From an uncultured Pseudomonadota bacterium (GTDB taxonomy: Bacteria; Desulfobacterota; Desulfobacteria; Desulfobacterales; Desulfobacteraceae): 37,145 nt of DNA. The notes under the pieces are model-generated. The model saw only the letters and a program-made list of their open reading frames with translations, ran no database searches and had not been told where the DNA came from. Both the position numbers and the translations under genes were made by a program. This document shows, piece by piece, positions 32,297 to 37,145 of this stretch. The stretch covers positions 1 to 37,145 of the forward strand of contig CALGRI010000107.1 in assembly GCA_937880875.1 (NCBI GenBank). The letters run 5' to 3'. The number at the start of each line of letters is the position of its first letter. The first letter of the stretch is position 1.

Positions 32297-32322
32297 TATA
32301 AAACGGTTAGGAGGTAAGAATA

Positions 32323-35300
32323 ATGACTCAAAAGTCAACACCAAAGGAAGATCTTACAGGTTCTGTCATGGTCCTTGGTGGCGGAATCGCAGGAATGCAG
32401 TCTGCCATTGATTTGGCCAATTCAGGGTATTATGTATATCTGGTCGAAAAATCTTATGCCATCGGCGGTATGATGGCGCAACTGGATAAGACATTCCCCA
32501 CCAATGACTGTACCATGTGAGTAATTTCACCCAAACTGGTCGAGGTCGGCCGGCATCTGAATATTGAATTGTTAACAAACACGGAGCTTCTTGAACTTGA
32601 AGGGGAAGATGGAAATTTTATTGCCCGGGTGAAAGAAAACCCAAGATTTGTTGATTTGTTGAAATGTACGTCATGTGGGGAATGTACAGCGGTTTGTCCG
32701 GTGGAAATACCCAGTGAACATAATCAGGGGTTAGCTCTTCGAAAGGCTATCTTCAAGCAATACGAACAGGCAATACCGGGAGGGTATGGGATTTCTAAAC
32801 GATCCACGGCTCCGTGCAAGGCCACCTGCCCGGCCCATGTGAGTATTCAGGGGTTTATTGCCTTGATGAATCAGGGAAAGCATGCAGAAGCACTGAAACT
32901 GTTCAAACAAGAGCATCCTTTCCCAGGTTCCTGTGGCCGTGTCTGCCACCATCCTTGTGAAGCGGCTTGTACAAGGGGTGATGCAGACGAGCCTGTTGCT
33001 ATCCAATACCTTCACAGATATCTGGCCCAGCTTGATTTTGACAGTGATGAAACCTTTATTCCTGAAATTGCAGACAAGCGCGATGAAAAAATAGCTATTG
33101 TAGGTTCAGGACCTGCAGGACTGACCTGCGCCTATTATATGGCCCAAAAGGGATATGGGGCCACTATATTTGAAAAATTGCCTGTCAAAGGCGGCATGAT
33201 GACAGTGGGTATCCCAGAATACCGGCTGCCCAAAGCCGAACTTGCAAAGGAAATTGAGGTTATTGAAAACCTGGGTGTTGAGATTCAAACCTCCGTTGAA
33301 TTTGGTAAGGATGTTACACTTCAAAGCCTTAAAAAAGATGGGTATAGCGCATTGTTCATGGCGACGGGCCTCCACGGCTCCCGTGGATTGGGTGTAAAGG
33401 GAGAAGATCTGGACGGGGTAATCAAAGGTGTCGATTTGTTAAGAGACGCAGCCCTGGGCAAAGCTGAAAAACTTATTGGCAAGGTCATGGTCATCGGCGG
33501 TGGTAATGTGGCAGTTGATGTTGCCCTTACTGCAAGGAGACTCGGCGCAGATGATGTGACCATGGTCTGTCTTGAAAAACGGGATGAAATGCCTGCCTGG
33601 GATTATGAAATTGAAGAAGCCCTTGAAGAAAAGGTCAAAATTGTCAACAGTCTTGGACCCTTAAGATTTCTGGGTATAGATGGAAAGGTTAATGAAGTTG
33701 AATTCCAGGAATGTATTTCTGTATTTGATGAAAACGGAAGGTTCAGCCCCCAATATGATGATTGCAAATTAACTTCCCATGAAGCAGACATAGTCATTGT
33801 GGCCATTGGCCAGATGGGTGAGTTTGATTTTGCAGATAAACAAGGTATTGCCTTAACCCCGCCGGGCGGACTTGAAGCTGATCCAGTCACCCTGCAGACA
33901 CCCATTGACTGGGTATTTGCCGGTGGCGATGCATACTATGGCCCCAAATCAGTTGTGGATGCCATTGCCAGTGGAAAGACTGCGGCGGAAAGCATGCATC
34001 GATTCATCAATGGCGAAGATTTGAAAAAAGATCGTGAAAAATCCTGGGATTTTGAAAAACCTGATATTGATAATGTAACGAAAATTGAACGGGCAAAACC
34101 CGTTAAAATCAGTGTGGATGAAAGAGAAGGTAATTTCAAGGAAGTCACTTTGGATCTTGCCAGAGAAGCCATTGAAAGAGAAGCGGCCCGGTGTCTTTCC
34201 TGCGGGATCTGCTCGGAATGCTACCAGTGCGTTGATGCCTGCCTTGCAGGAGCAATTAATCATGAAGAACAGCCAAAGATAAGAGATTTGAATGTGGGAT
34301 CTGTCATCATGACCACCGGTGCCACAACCTTTGATCCGTCAGGTCTTGATGATATCTATATGTATAAGAGATCGCAAAATGTGATGACATCTCTTGAGTT
34401 TGAAAGAATTTTAAGTGCTGGCGGCCCCACCATGGGGCATCTTGTCAGGCCTTCCGATGAAAAAGAGCCTGAGAAAATTGCATGGCTTCAATGTATCGGG
34501 TCAAGGGATACCAATAAGTGCGGTAATGGGTACTGCTCATCCGTCTGCTGTATGTATGCCATTAAAGATGCCATGATTGCCAAGGAACATTCAGAGCTTG
34601 AACTGGATGCAGCCATATTTAATATGGATATGCGAACTTTTGGCAAGGATTATGAAAAATATTATAACAGGGCCGCAGACCAGGAAGGGGTCAGGTTTGT
34701 AAAATCAAGAATCCATTCTGTGATTGAAGAACCCGGGACGGACAACCTGATTCTCAATTATGCTGATGAAGAAGGTAAAATGCAGCAGGAAATCTTTGAC
34801 ATGGTTATTCTGTCTGTGGGCCTTGTCATTCCAAAGGAGAGTGTGGATCTTGCCAACAGGATCGGAGTTGAGCTGGACAAGTATAATTTTGTCAAAACGT
34901 CGACCTTCAACCCCTTACAGACATCCCGGCCAGGGGTTTATGTATCGGGTACTTTCCAGGGTCCAAAGGATATTCCTTCCTCGGTGACAGAGGCCAGCGG
35001 TGCAGCCGCTGCAGCCGGAATAAAACTTGCCGGAGCGCGTCATACCTGTACAAAAACCGTTGCCAAGCCGGAAGAAAGAGATGTCCTGGGGGAAGAACCG
35101 AGAATCGGGGTGTTTATCTGCAAATGCGGTATCAATATTGCCGGTGTGATTGATGTTGAAGATGTTGAAAATTATACCAAGACACTCCCCAATGTTGTTT
35201 ATACCGGTGGAAATCTGTTTACTTGTTCCCAGGATACCCAGGTTTCCATTAAGGAACTCATTGATGAGCATCAGCTTAACCGTGTTGTAGTGGCATCCTG

Positions 35301-36768
35301 CACCCCGAAAACCCATGAGGGTATCTTCATGGATACCCTGGAAGATGCGGGGTTAAATAAATATTTGTTTGAAATGGCCAATATCCGAAACCAGGATTCC
35401 TGGATGCATTTTCACGAACCTGAAAAAGCCACAAAAAAAGCCAAGGATCTGATTCGAATGGCTGTGGCAAGGGTGGCAACTCTGGGGCCGCTCCATGATA
35501 AAACGATCACAGTGATTGATAAGGCATTGGTGATCGGCGGTGGTATTGCAGGCATGACGGCTGCCAAAGGACTGGCGGATCAGGGCTATGAGGTTACCCT
35601 GGTTGAAAAGGAAGCTCAGCTGGGCGGACTTGGAAATCGGCTGTACCATACCATTGAAGGCGATGATATCCAGGTCTATGTGAAAGAGCTTATTGAGACG
35701 GTTGAAAATCACGACAAAATAGATATCCTTAAACAGGCTCTGATCGTAGGATTTGGCGGGTATAAAGGCAACTTCAAGACCACAGTTCTTGTGGGTACAT
35801 CCATGGAAGAAAGAAAGATTGACCATGGTGCTATGATTGTGGCAACCGGCGCAACGGAATACCAGCCCACAGAATTTCTTTACAATGAAAGCGAAGCGGT
35901 TGTCACCCAGCTTGAACTTGCCGACATGATTGAGGAGAACAAGACCCGTGATCTGGACCGTGTCATCATGATTCAATGCGTAGGTTCAAGAAACGAAGAG
36001 AATCCGAATTGTTCACGAATCTGTTGTCAGAATGCTGTCAAGAATGCCATTGCCCTGAAAGAACAAAATGCAGATATAGATGTATTTATTCTTTATCGGG
36101 ATATGAGAATGTACTCCATGCTGGAAGAATTTTACACAAAAGCAAGAAATCTGGGTGTAATCTTTTCACGGTTTGATCCTGAAAATCCACCCGAGGTGGC
36201 CAAGGGCGAAAACGGTGGGATGGCAGTGACGTTCAGGGATCATGTACTGGGACAAAAAGTTGAAGCAAGTGCGGATCTTGTTGTATTAAGCGCCGGTGTC
36301 AAGGCAGCAGATACGGAAGAATTGGCCACCATCATTAAAACCGGCAGAAATGCCGAAGGTTTTTTTATGGAAGCCCACGTAAAACTACGACCGGTTGAAG
36401 CGCCCACGGAAGGTATTTTTATCTGCGGTACGGCCCATGGACCAAAATTGATTACTGAAACTATTGCACAGGCCATGGCGGCAGCATCAAGGGCAACCAC
36501 ATTCATTTCCCAGGAATTTTTGACCCTGTCTTCCGTAACCGCTGAAGTTGAACAGGAAAATTGTGCCTCATGTCTTGCCTGCGTCAGATCCTGTCCCTAT
36601 CATGTGCCGGTTATTAATGAATTTGGTGTCAGTTACATTGACCCGGCGCTTTGTCAGGGGTGTGGGATTTGTGCATCTGAATGTCCTGCTAAAACAATAA
36701 AACTAAACTGGTATGAAGATAACCAGCTGCTCAGCAAGGTTGAGGCTTTGCTGGAGGGGGTAATATGA
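32323..36768 (+). CDS. hdrA: Giant HdrA-type flavoprotein with GltD/NfnB-like insert, selenoprotein (Sec66)
   Basis: Reading the TGA at 32518-32520 as Sec gives 1481 residues. Module 1 (1-157) is the HdrA/QmoA-type FAD domain: GGGIAG at 19-24, TNDCTM-Sec at 60-66 and ferredoxin Cys 115/118/121/125. An inserted GltD/NfnB-like module (about 158-655) has Fe-S Cys 165, 169, 204, 208, 212 and 216, GSGPAGL near 261, NAD(P) motif GGGNVA at 392-397 and a Cys-rich segment 624-640. HdrA sequence resumes with QCIGSRD and a Cys set at 733-743. Module 3 (from about 933, CKCG) is a QmoB-like unit with GGGIAG at 1072-1077 and two terminal 4Fe-4S motifs (1414-1424, 1444-1454). A cytoplasmic electron-bifurcating role is inferred. 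SD AGGAGG fixes the start. It overlaps mvhD by four bases. Confidence 0.93.
32518..32520 (+). other. Predicted selenocysteine codon (TGA) of HdrA
   Basis: It lies in TNDCTM-Sec-VISPKLVEVG, where HdrA proteins have Cys (consensus TNDCxMCxLxPK). The frame continues for 1415 residues of uninterrupted HdrA/GltD sequence. Sec at this site is known in some methanogen HdrA proteins. Confidence 0.95.
32536..32553 (+). promoter_or_regulatory. SECIS element of hdrA
   Basis: Six base pairs (CUGGUC with GGCCGG, including two G-U pairs) close a six-base loop GAGGUC. The loop begins 21 bases after the TGA, within the bacterial SECIS window, and its GGUC resembles the loop of E. coli fdhF, where SelB contacts the GU. 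Confidence 0.82.
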
Positions 36769-37145
36769 CAAAAGAGTTTGAGCCGGTTATTCTGGCATTT
36801 TGCTGTAATTTCTGAGGGTATTCAGCTGCGGACCTGGCAGGTTCCATGCGATTGAAGATCCCGGCAAATTTTAGAATTGTCCGTGTCCCCTGTACCGGAA
36901 AGGTTGATATTATTCATGTTTTGAGAGCATTTGAAAAAGGGGCTGACGGGGTCTATGTGGTCGGCTGTATGGAAGGGGATTGTCACTACAATGAAGGGAA
37001 TTTTAGAGCAAGAAAACGAATCGAGCAGGCAGCTATTATTCTTGACAAGGTCGGTGTGGGAGGCGAACGTGTGAAAATGTTCAATCTTTCATCCGGTGAA
37101 GGCCCTTTGTTTGCACAGTATTCCATTGAAATGAATAATAAAATT
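36765..37145 (+). CDS. mvhD: MvhD-type delta subunit, predicted selenoprotein (Sec17), partial
   Basis: The N-terminal 127 residues of a MvhD/FrhD-family electron-transfer subunit, cut by the window edge. The start codon overlaps the hdrA stop (ATGA). In ILAFCCNF-Sec-GYSAADLAG, the TGA at 36813-36815 (codon 17) stands where MvhD has Cys in the motif CCNWCSY. The other family signatures follow in frame: VRVPCTGKVDIIHVL and VYVVGCMEGDCHYNEGN. In the HdrABC-MvhAGD complex of methanogens MvhD carries an Fe-S cluster and passes electrons to HdrA. Coupling to an adjacent HdrA here implies the same electron path, from a hydrogenase, formate dehydrogenase or other donor encoded outside the window. 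Confidence 0.9.
36813..36815 (+). other. Predicted selenocysteine codon (TGA) of MvhD
   Basis: The TGA is at codon 17, replacing the third Cys of the CCxxC motif. If it were a stop, the product would be 16 residues long and the following conserved frame (112 sense codons to the edge) would be left without a start. Confidence 0.93.
36827..36850 (+). promoter_or_regulatory. Candidate SECIS element of mvhD
   Basis: GGA/CCU pair with AGG/UCC in a hairpin with a three-base GGC loop and a bulged U (36842), extended by UGC with GCG across an AU bulge. The loop begins 20 bases after the TGA. The bulged U and spacing suit bacterial SECIS, but the loop is smaller than usual and alternatives can be drawn. 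Confidence 0.5.

Follow-up and report, generated by a model that had tools for sequence, protein, structure and literature searches.

The window analysed here, 37,145 nucleotides in full, is contig CALGRI010000107.1 (assembly GCA_937880875.1) from an uncultured sulfate-reducing bacterium of the Desulfobacteraceae. Toward its 3′ end lie hdrL, whose product joins two HdrA units with a GltD-like domain, and mvhD, which directly follows; each carries an in-frame TGA codon that we read as selenocysteine (Sec) (Table 1). hdrL opens with ATG at 32323 and runs for 65 codons to a TGA at 32518–32520, the single internal TGA of the frame 32323–36768, after which 1415 sense codons lead to the stop TGA at 36766–36768. 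A first-pass annotation of the same DNA had joined these two parts into one gene, and translation of the whole interval bears out its coordinates. Indeed, hdrL is confirmed as a gene that is broken when open reading frames are called with TGA as a stop: a mechanical list splits it into pieces of 65 and 1399 amino acids, the second from a TTG start available at 32569, 3′ of the TGA.

Table 1. Features of the hdrL–mvhD region (window positions)
Feature	Position	Strand	Basis
AGGAGGT, resembling a ribosome-binding site, 5′ of ATG 32323	32309..32315	+	by eye
hdrL (HdrA-GltD-HdrA fusion), 1481 amino acids including Sec66	32323..36768	+	domain and PDB matches, orthologues
First HdrA half, proximal part: flavin adenine dinucleotide (FAD)/thioredoxin reductase (TrxR) domain, CxxU, inserted ferredoxin motif (Cys115/118/121/125)	32323..32802	+	aligned to 5odc 142-295
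In-frame TGA read as Sec66 (codon 66), column of HdrA Cys197	32518..32520	+	alignment, relatives
Selenocysteine insertion sequence (SECIS) hairpin, 6 pairs, GAGGUC loop, 15 nt after TGA (codons 72-77)	32536..32553	+	folding, comparison
GltD/NfnB-like insertion (Fer4_20 + Pyr_redox_2), residues ~163-636, borders approximate	32809..34230	+	Pfam, NCBIfam, PDB matches
First HdrA half, distal part, with Glu694 and Lys748	34210..35052	+	alignment
HdrA N-terminal cluster domain, ahead of second half (Cys933, 935, 968, 993)	35092..35520	+	alignment
Second HdrA half: TrxR domain, then C-terminal 2x[4Fe-4S]	35521..36768	+	domain matches, alignment
mvhD (FlpD), overlapping the hdrL stop (ATGA), truncated by contig end	36765..37145	+	domain matches
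Second in-frame TGA, read as Sec17 of MvhD (CCNFU)	36813..36815	+	translation, relatives
mvhD hairpin GGACCT-GGC-AGGTTC	36830..36844	+	comparison

The residues around codon 66 read TFPTNDCTM-U-VISPK. In solved HdrA chains the same alignment column holds Cys in 5odc_A (residue 197, within TNDCSIC), 8rvu_a and 8rvv_A, and X in 9sfi_A, the comparison covering 4 alignments out of 18 matched sequences. The alignment that the first-pass annotation had recommended thus places a Cys opposite codon 66, and its view that the TGA occupies the HdrA Cys site holds. We take 5odc to come from Methanothermococcus.

Pfam, NCBIfam and PDB matches map the FAD domain with its ferredoxin motif to residues 1–160, put the end of the first HdrA unit near residue 910 and place the N-terminal cluster domain at residues 924–1066. 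Each of the four Cys of this last domain is present in 54/54 aligned rows, and the second half is without CxxC/U at the place of Cys197 and without the bifurcation Glu. Two HdrA units, the first with GltD inserted, and mvhD directly downstream are the marks of the HdrL or Moorella-type arrangement, and the protein is the HdrA-GltD-HdrA fusion named HdrL in Desulfobacterium autotrophicum HRM2 in 2009 (PMC2702500), with the same layout as Moorella HdrA (PMC9430772). Its scores lie below the curated NCBIfam cut-offs for methanogen HdrA (NF040770, 924/1100 bits; NF041778, 709/1400; NF041891, 676/1300). The earlier description of a bacterial Sec-HdrA stands as regards Sec decoding and has to be amended as regards the protein, which is not a plain HdrA. 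A paralogue of HdrL lies on contig C238 of the same genome, its start cut by the contig end.

Evidence for Sec decoding of the in-frame TGA codons

After removal of identical stretches, 138 distinct sites were compared, the window included, and codon 66 is TGA at 106 of them, TGC at 19 and TGT at 13; the search pattern also admitted TAA or TAG. Homologues with a true stop, a possibility that the first-pass annotation had raised, did not appear among these sites. Among the best matches in 116 related genomes, 30/30 loci (window included) carry TGA at this codon. So do 39 of 40 further stretches picked for a reported TGA, the remaining one being the wrong end of a match, and all of 18 more picked in the same way, which are 46–50% identical (one at 58%) and have the same 18 hairpin bases in 16 cases and one changed loop base in 2; in the 20 stretches picked for no reported TGA, codon 66 is TGT or TGC. 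In a second collection, not selected by codon, the motif occurs in 68/77 loci, 56 with TGA and 12 with Cys, and the identical 18-nt hairpin in 55 of the 56 TGA loci.

The hairpin reads CTGGTC-GAGGTC-GGCCGG, with two of its six pairs G-U, and RNAfold adds a seventh pair, which leaves a 4-nt loop. Its six pairs and GAGGUC loop, 15 bases past the TGA, had been proposed at first pass, and comparison upholds them: all six pairs are kept at 106/106 distinct Sec sites vs 1/32 Cys sites (locus L164). The 18 bases are the same at 103 of the 106 Sec sites, with a loop change at 2 and a U-to-C change that still pairs at 1, which makes a very clean SECIS signature. Because the hairpin is nearly invariant, synonymous constraint was used in place of covariation. 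At each hairpin position the codon is the same in all 69 Sec genes compared, apart from one row with Ala at codon 73, whereas 20 Cys genes show 2 to 5 different codons per residue. Over codons 71–77, the hairpin's six and the one before, synonymous diversity in 45 Sec genes is 0.000 vs a gene mean of 0.533; this is the sole run without scored synonymous variation (zero otherwise occurs at three isolated codons), and of 931 six-codon windows the two with the lowest values fall here, while the codons flanking the hairpin vary freely in the same genes. For the Cys genes (n = 9), codons 72–77 have a synonymous diversity of 0.538 vs 0.545 and rank 342/755.

Several observations speak against the hairpin as a SECIS element or weaken the contrast between Sec and Cys genes. 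The folding energy is ordinary over 46 nt (z −1.44, 17/200 shuffles as good) and over a longer stretch of 61 nt (z −0.73, 53/200), and it was rejected as proof of the hairpin, being too weak, with comparison used instead. Rfam, at gathering and relaxed thresholds, gives no SECIS match at the hdrL hairpin, only unrelated low-scoring matches, and near invariance leaves no covariation visible. The encoded peptide differs at codon 75 only, which specifies Val in the Sec genes and either Ala or Cys in the 20 genes of the Cys group. Furthermore, Sec and Cys HdrL lie on either side of one branch with a Shimodaira–Hasegawa-like approximate likelihood ratio (SH-aLRT) support of 100 in a quick tree of 54 rows; the Sec sequences are thus kin, not independent events, and the Sec/Cys contrast may partly be one of lineage. 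The nearest rows of this tree are bins assigned to Proteobacteria, Deltaproteobacteria and Desulfobacula, and the wider set of relatives includes Desulfotignum, Desulfospira, Desulfocicer, Desulfamplus, Desulfobacterium and Desulfonema.

The window's own genome assembly (528 contigs, 96% complete, 5% contamination) encodes the full Sec machinery. In profile searches, selC (74.1 bits, on contig C89), selB (346.8), selA (599) and selD (370) all score above the curated cut-offs, which were the deciding test, weaker matches to the same families occurring in control genomes; all four genes that the first-pass annotation had singled out for a search are therefore present. selD itself has one TGA, at a G-U-AAK motif. 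ARAGORN found no tRNA in the window. Together, the conserved TGA, the conserved hairpin, selA, selB, selC and selD and the Cys in homologues support Sec decoding, and the hdrL product, judged from its sequence, is almost surely a selenoprotein. Conservation suggests that SelB with Sec-tRNA would bind the hairpin just past the UGA.

The second TGA, in mvhD at 36813–36815, is absent from the first-pass annotation. The hairpin that follows it is identical at 53/53 distinct Sec sites of the MvhD motif vs 0/10 Cys sites, and Rfam gives no SECIS match there. Elsewhere in the same genome, an MvhD on contig C198 (L215) carries an in-frame TGA at the CTW-U-AY site and another in place of the Cys of G-C-H-x-G-x-C, and two more (L212 on C450 and L214 on C403) have a TGA at the second of these sites only. 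Several Sec per MvhD-family protein have been reported in archaea (PMC13188914).

Three other explanations of the hdrL TGA were rejected on the TGA and Cys codons of relatives, the hairpin and the Sec machinery. If translation truly ended at the TGA, the first 65 codons would be separate from the frame beyond it, or the gene would be decaying; the TTG at 32569 does offer a start, but a protein begun there would drop the GGGIAG FAD motif, the frame is open and similar on either side of the TGA in relatives, and TAA or TAG at codon 66 would have been caught, so that we regard this as very improbable. Scarcely credible is a sequencing or assembly error from TGC or TGT to TGA, for which a single base would suffice in an assembly of so many contigs, as the identical TGA and hairpin recur at 106 distinct sites. 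We give as little credence to wholesale recoding of TGA to another amino acid; the open frame is what speaks for it, but the genome has the Sec machinery, the TGAs examined (in hdrL, mvhD, two further MvhD genes, both positions of a fourth MvhD, and selD) fall at Cys or known Sec motifs, and hdrL itself terminates at TGA.

metV and metF beside hdrL and mvhD

In relatives, metV (PF12225) and metF (PF02219) come after mvhD. Of 77 loci, 16 with <1.2 kb downstream were set aside; among the 61 left, Sec and Cys forms combined, the first 2.5 kb downstream contain metV in 58 and both genes in 55. Locus L131 stops before metF, L140 and L166 have metF just past 2.5 kb, L172 and L180 have neither gene within 2.5 kb, and L171, a match over two joined pieces, has metV-metF within its span. 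In the relative genome G042, an orthologue 62% identical to HdrL, with TGA and the identical hairpin, is followed by Sec-mvhD, metV and metF. A cluster with both metV and metF is one mark of an Hdr-type methylene-tetrahydrofolate (THF) reductase. In the window's own genome, metV-metF opens contig C508, 92% identical to locus L109 from 75 nt past the point where the window's end matches; because the match takes up just past the window end, the hdrL-mvhD operon very likely carries on into C508. This arrangement points to two Sec proteins acting in a single Wood-Ljungdahl step of sulfate reducers.

Some loci have further genes of this kind. Immediately upstream of hdrL, L129 (9015-9989) and, for example, L130, L132, L169, L170, L181, L184 and L185 have a second, distant MetF-like gene (28–32% identity), and in L132, L181, L185 and L219 a second metV-metF pair follows the first at a distance of about 7 kb. 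In the window, the gene upstream of hdrL encodes an AmpG-like transporter.

Sec-HdrA, Sec-HdrL, Sec-MvhD and Hdr-linked methylene-THF reductases are already known. Bacterial Sec-HdrA was reported in 2006, with 16 bacterial HdrA selenoproteins (PMC1794560), and Desulfococcus multivorans has Sec in HdrA and MvhD (PMC5109826). In D. autotrophicum, HdrL1 and HdrL3 contain Sec, mvhD comes after HdrL genes, and four mvhD genes carry Sec (PMC2702500); this HdrL is like that of the window in Sec, fusion and mvhD neighbour, but the available text of the report has no hdrL–metVF link and no ligand role for Sec. Sec-HdrA and HdrL have the CxxU motif in common (PMC13188914). In methanogens and Deltaproteobacteria, Sec-HdrA adjoins Sec-FrhD/MvhD, as here, but those operons carry frhG/frhA hydrogenase genes where metV and metF stand here (PMC1794560). 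HdrA of 5odc aligns with HdrL in its domains, but has Cys, not Sec, and no GltD.

Hdr-linked methylene-THF reductases have been described for Moorella, Sporomusa, Thermacetogenium and Chloroflexi (PMC9430772, PMC6895022, PMC5736913). Moorella thermoacetica HdrA (MetFV-HdrABC-MvhD) is likewise clustered with mvhD and metVF and has the complementary Cys197 and N-domain (PMC9430772, PMC9012536, PMC5736913); in this protein, described to residue 1487, additional ferredoxin and TrxR-like parts are interrupted by GltD and followed by an HdrA-like C-terminal half, as here. HdrA and FrhD of M. thermoacetica are listed as selenoproteins (PMC1794560), and the listed HdrA may be the MetFV-linked one. The Moorella cluster includes hdrB/hdrC, whereas the window's relatives have none between these genes; Thermacetogenium phaeum, in turn, has hdrA without hdrBC beside metFV, as here (PMC6895022). 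HdrA3/4 of anaerobic methanotrophic archaea share the complementary Cys197 and N-domain, but with the N-domain half first where it is last here (PMC9012536). In Seep-SRB1g, syntrophic sulfate reducers with metF-HdrABC, Hdr stands beside metF and the same reaction type is proposed, but with HdrABC instead of HdrL, and selenocysteine has 0 occurrences in the available text (PMC10553843). A limited search of the open-access literature found no description of a Sec-HdrL-MvhD-MetVF operon of sulfate reducers and no statement of Sec as an HdrA cluster ligand.

Proposed role of Sec66

In the HdrA dimer, Cys197 of one HdrA ligates the N-domain cluster of its partner, electrons bound for ferredoxin pass that cluster, and in fused HdrA, including the Moorella MetFV-linked protein, Cys197 and the N-domain are split between the halves (PMC9012536). 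HdrL has such a complementary split: Sec66 belongs to half 1, which lacks an N-domain, and half 2 has the N-domain and no CxxC at the place of Cys197. Glu356/Lys409 have been given as the signature of a flavin that bifurcates electrons (PMC9430772). The residues of half 1 aligned with them, Glu694 and Lys748, are present in 54/54 rows; at the equivalent positions of half 2, placed by eye, Glu is found in 0/54 rows (Asp in 8) and Lys in 45/54. Because of the complementary halves and the Glu/Lys signature of half 1, the Sec66 selenolate is most likely, as far as alignment can tell, a ligand of a [4Fe-4S] cluster that bridges the protein's two halves, and this cluster would lie on the low-potential (ferredoxin) branch of the flavin with the bifurcation signature.

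In the mechanism that we propose, decoding of the TGA as Sec would yield a 1481-residue HdrL from the first gene of hdrL-mvhD-metV-metF, with two HdrA units in one chain and a GltD (NfnB-like) domain inside the first. HdrL, MvhD and MetVF would form an Hdr-type methylene-THF reductase, which would link NAD(P)H and ferredoxin to the interconversion of methyl- and methylene-THF in the Wood-Ljungdahl pathway. We consider it quite probable that Sec-HdrL is the flavin/NAD(P)H/ferredoxin module of such an enzyme, with Sec66 as the likely cluster ligand between the halves; complex formation, bifurcation or confurcation and the direction of flow are what we infer for it. Tentatively, and with somewhat more doubt than confidence, we suggest that Sec acts as a structural [4Fe-4S] ligand joining the halves of a complex that is doubly selenium-dependent, through HdrL and MvhD, and that selenium tunes the electron split and not the substrate chemistry. 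If Sec66 is indeed a cluster ligand, HdrL would offer a testable example of an iron-sulfur cluster tuned by selenium during electron bifurcation.

Some points tell against this proposal. Homology is the sole basis for Sec66 as a selenolate ligand, metV-metF are not on the window's contig, and loci L111, L129 and L157 have no room for hdrB/hdrC among hdrL, mvhD, metV and metF (the genome elsewhere was not searched for them). In addition, washed membranes of Sporomusa with an Hdr-type enzyme, whose HdrA is without GltD, showed no co-reduction of NAD(P) or ferredoxin (PMC9430772). A genuine Sec-HdrL could also have another partner or role, for instance in passing electrons to sulfite reduction as for D. 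autotrophicum HdrL1, with metVF incidental. A path from NADH to sulfite was proposed for the HdrL1 locus (PMC2702500), in locus L220 of G042 a Cys-MvhD comes next, then other genes, and 14 kb of sequence give no match to MetV or MetF, and metV and metF are missing within 2.5 kb in L172 and L180. However, both genes lie downstream in 55/61 testable loci of the HdrL group, as they do behind the 62%-identical orthologue of G042, and we regard such a different role as unlikely, preferring HdrL as a module of the methylene-THF reductase.

The gene at L220 is a second Sec-HdrL of G042, 48% identical and with the same 18-nt hairpin; a gene further on resembles DsrC by eye.

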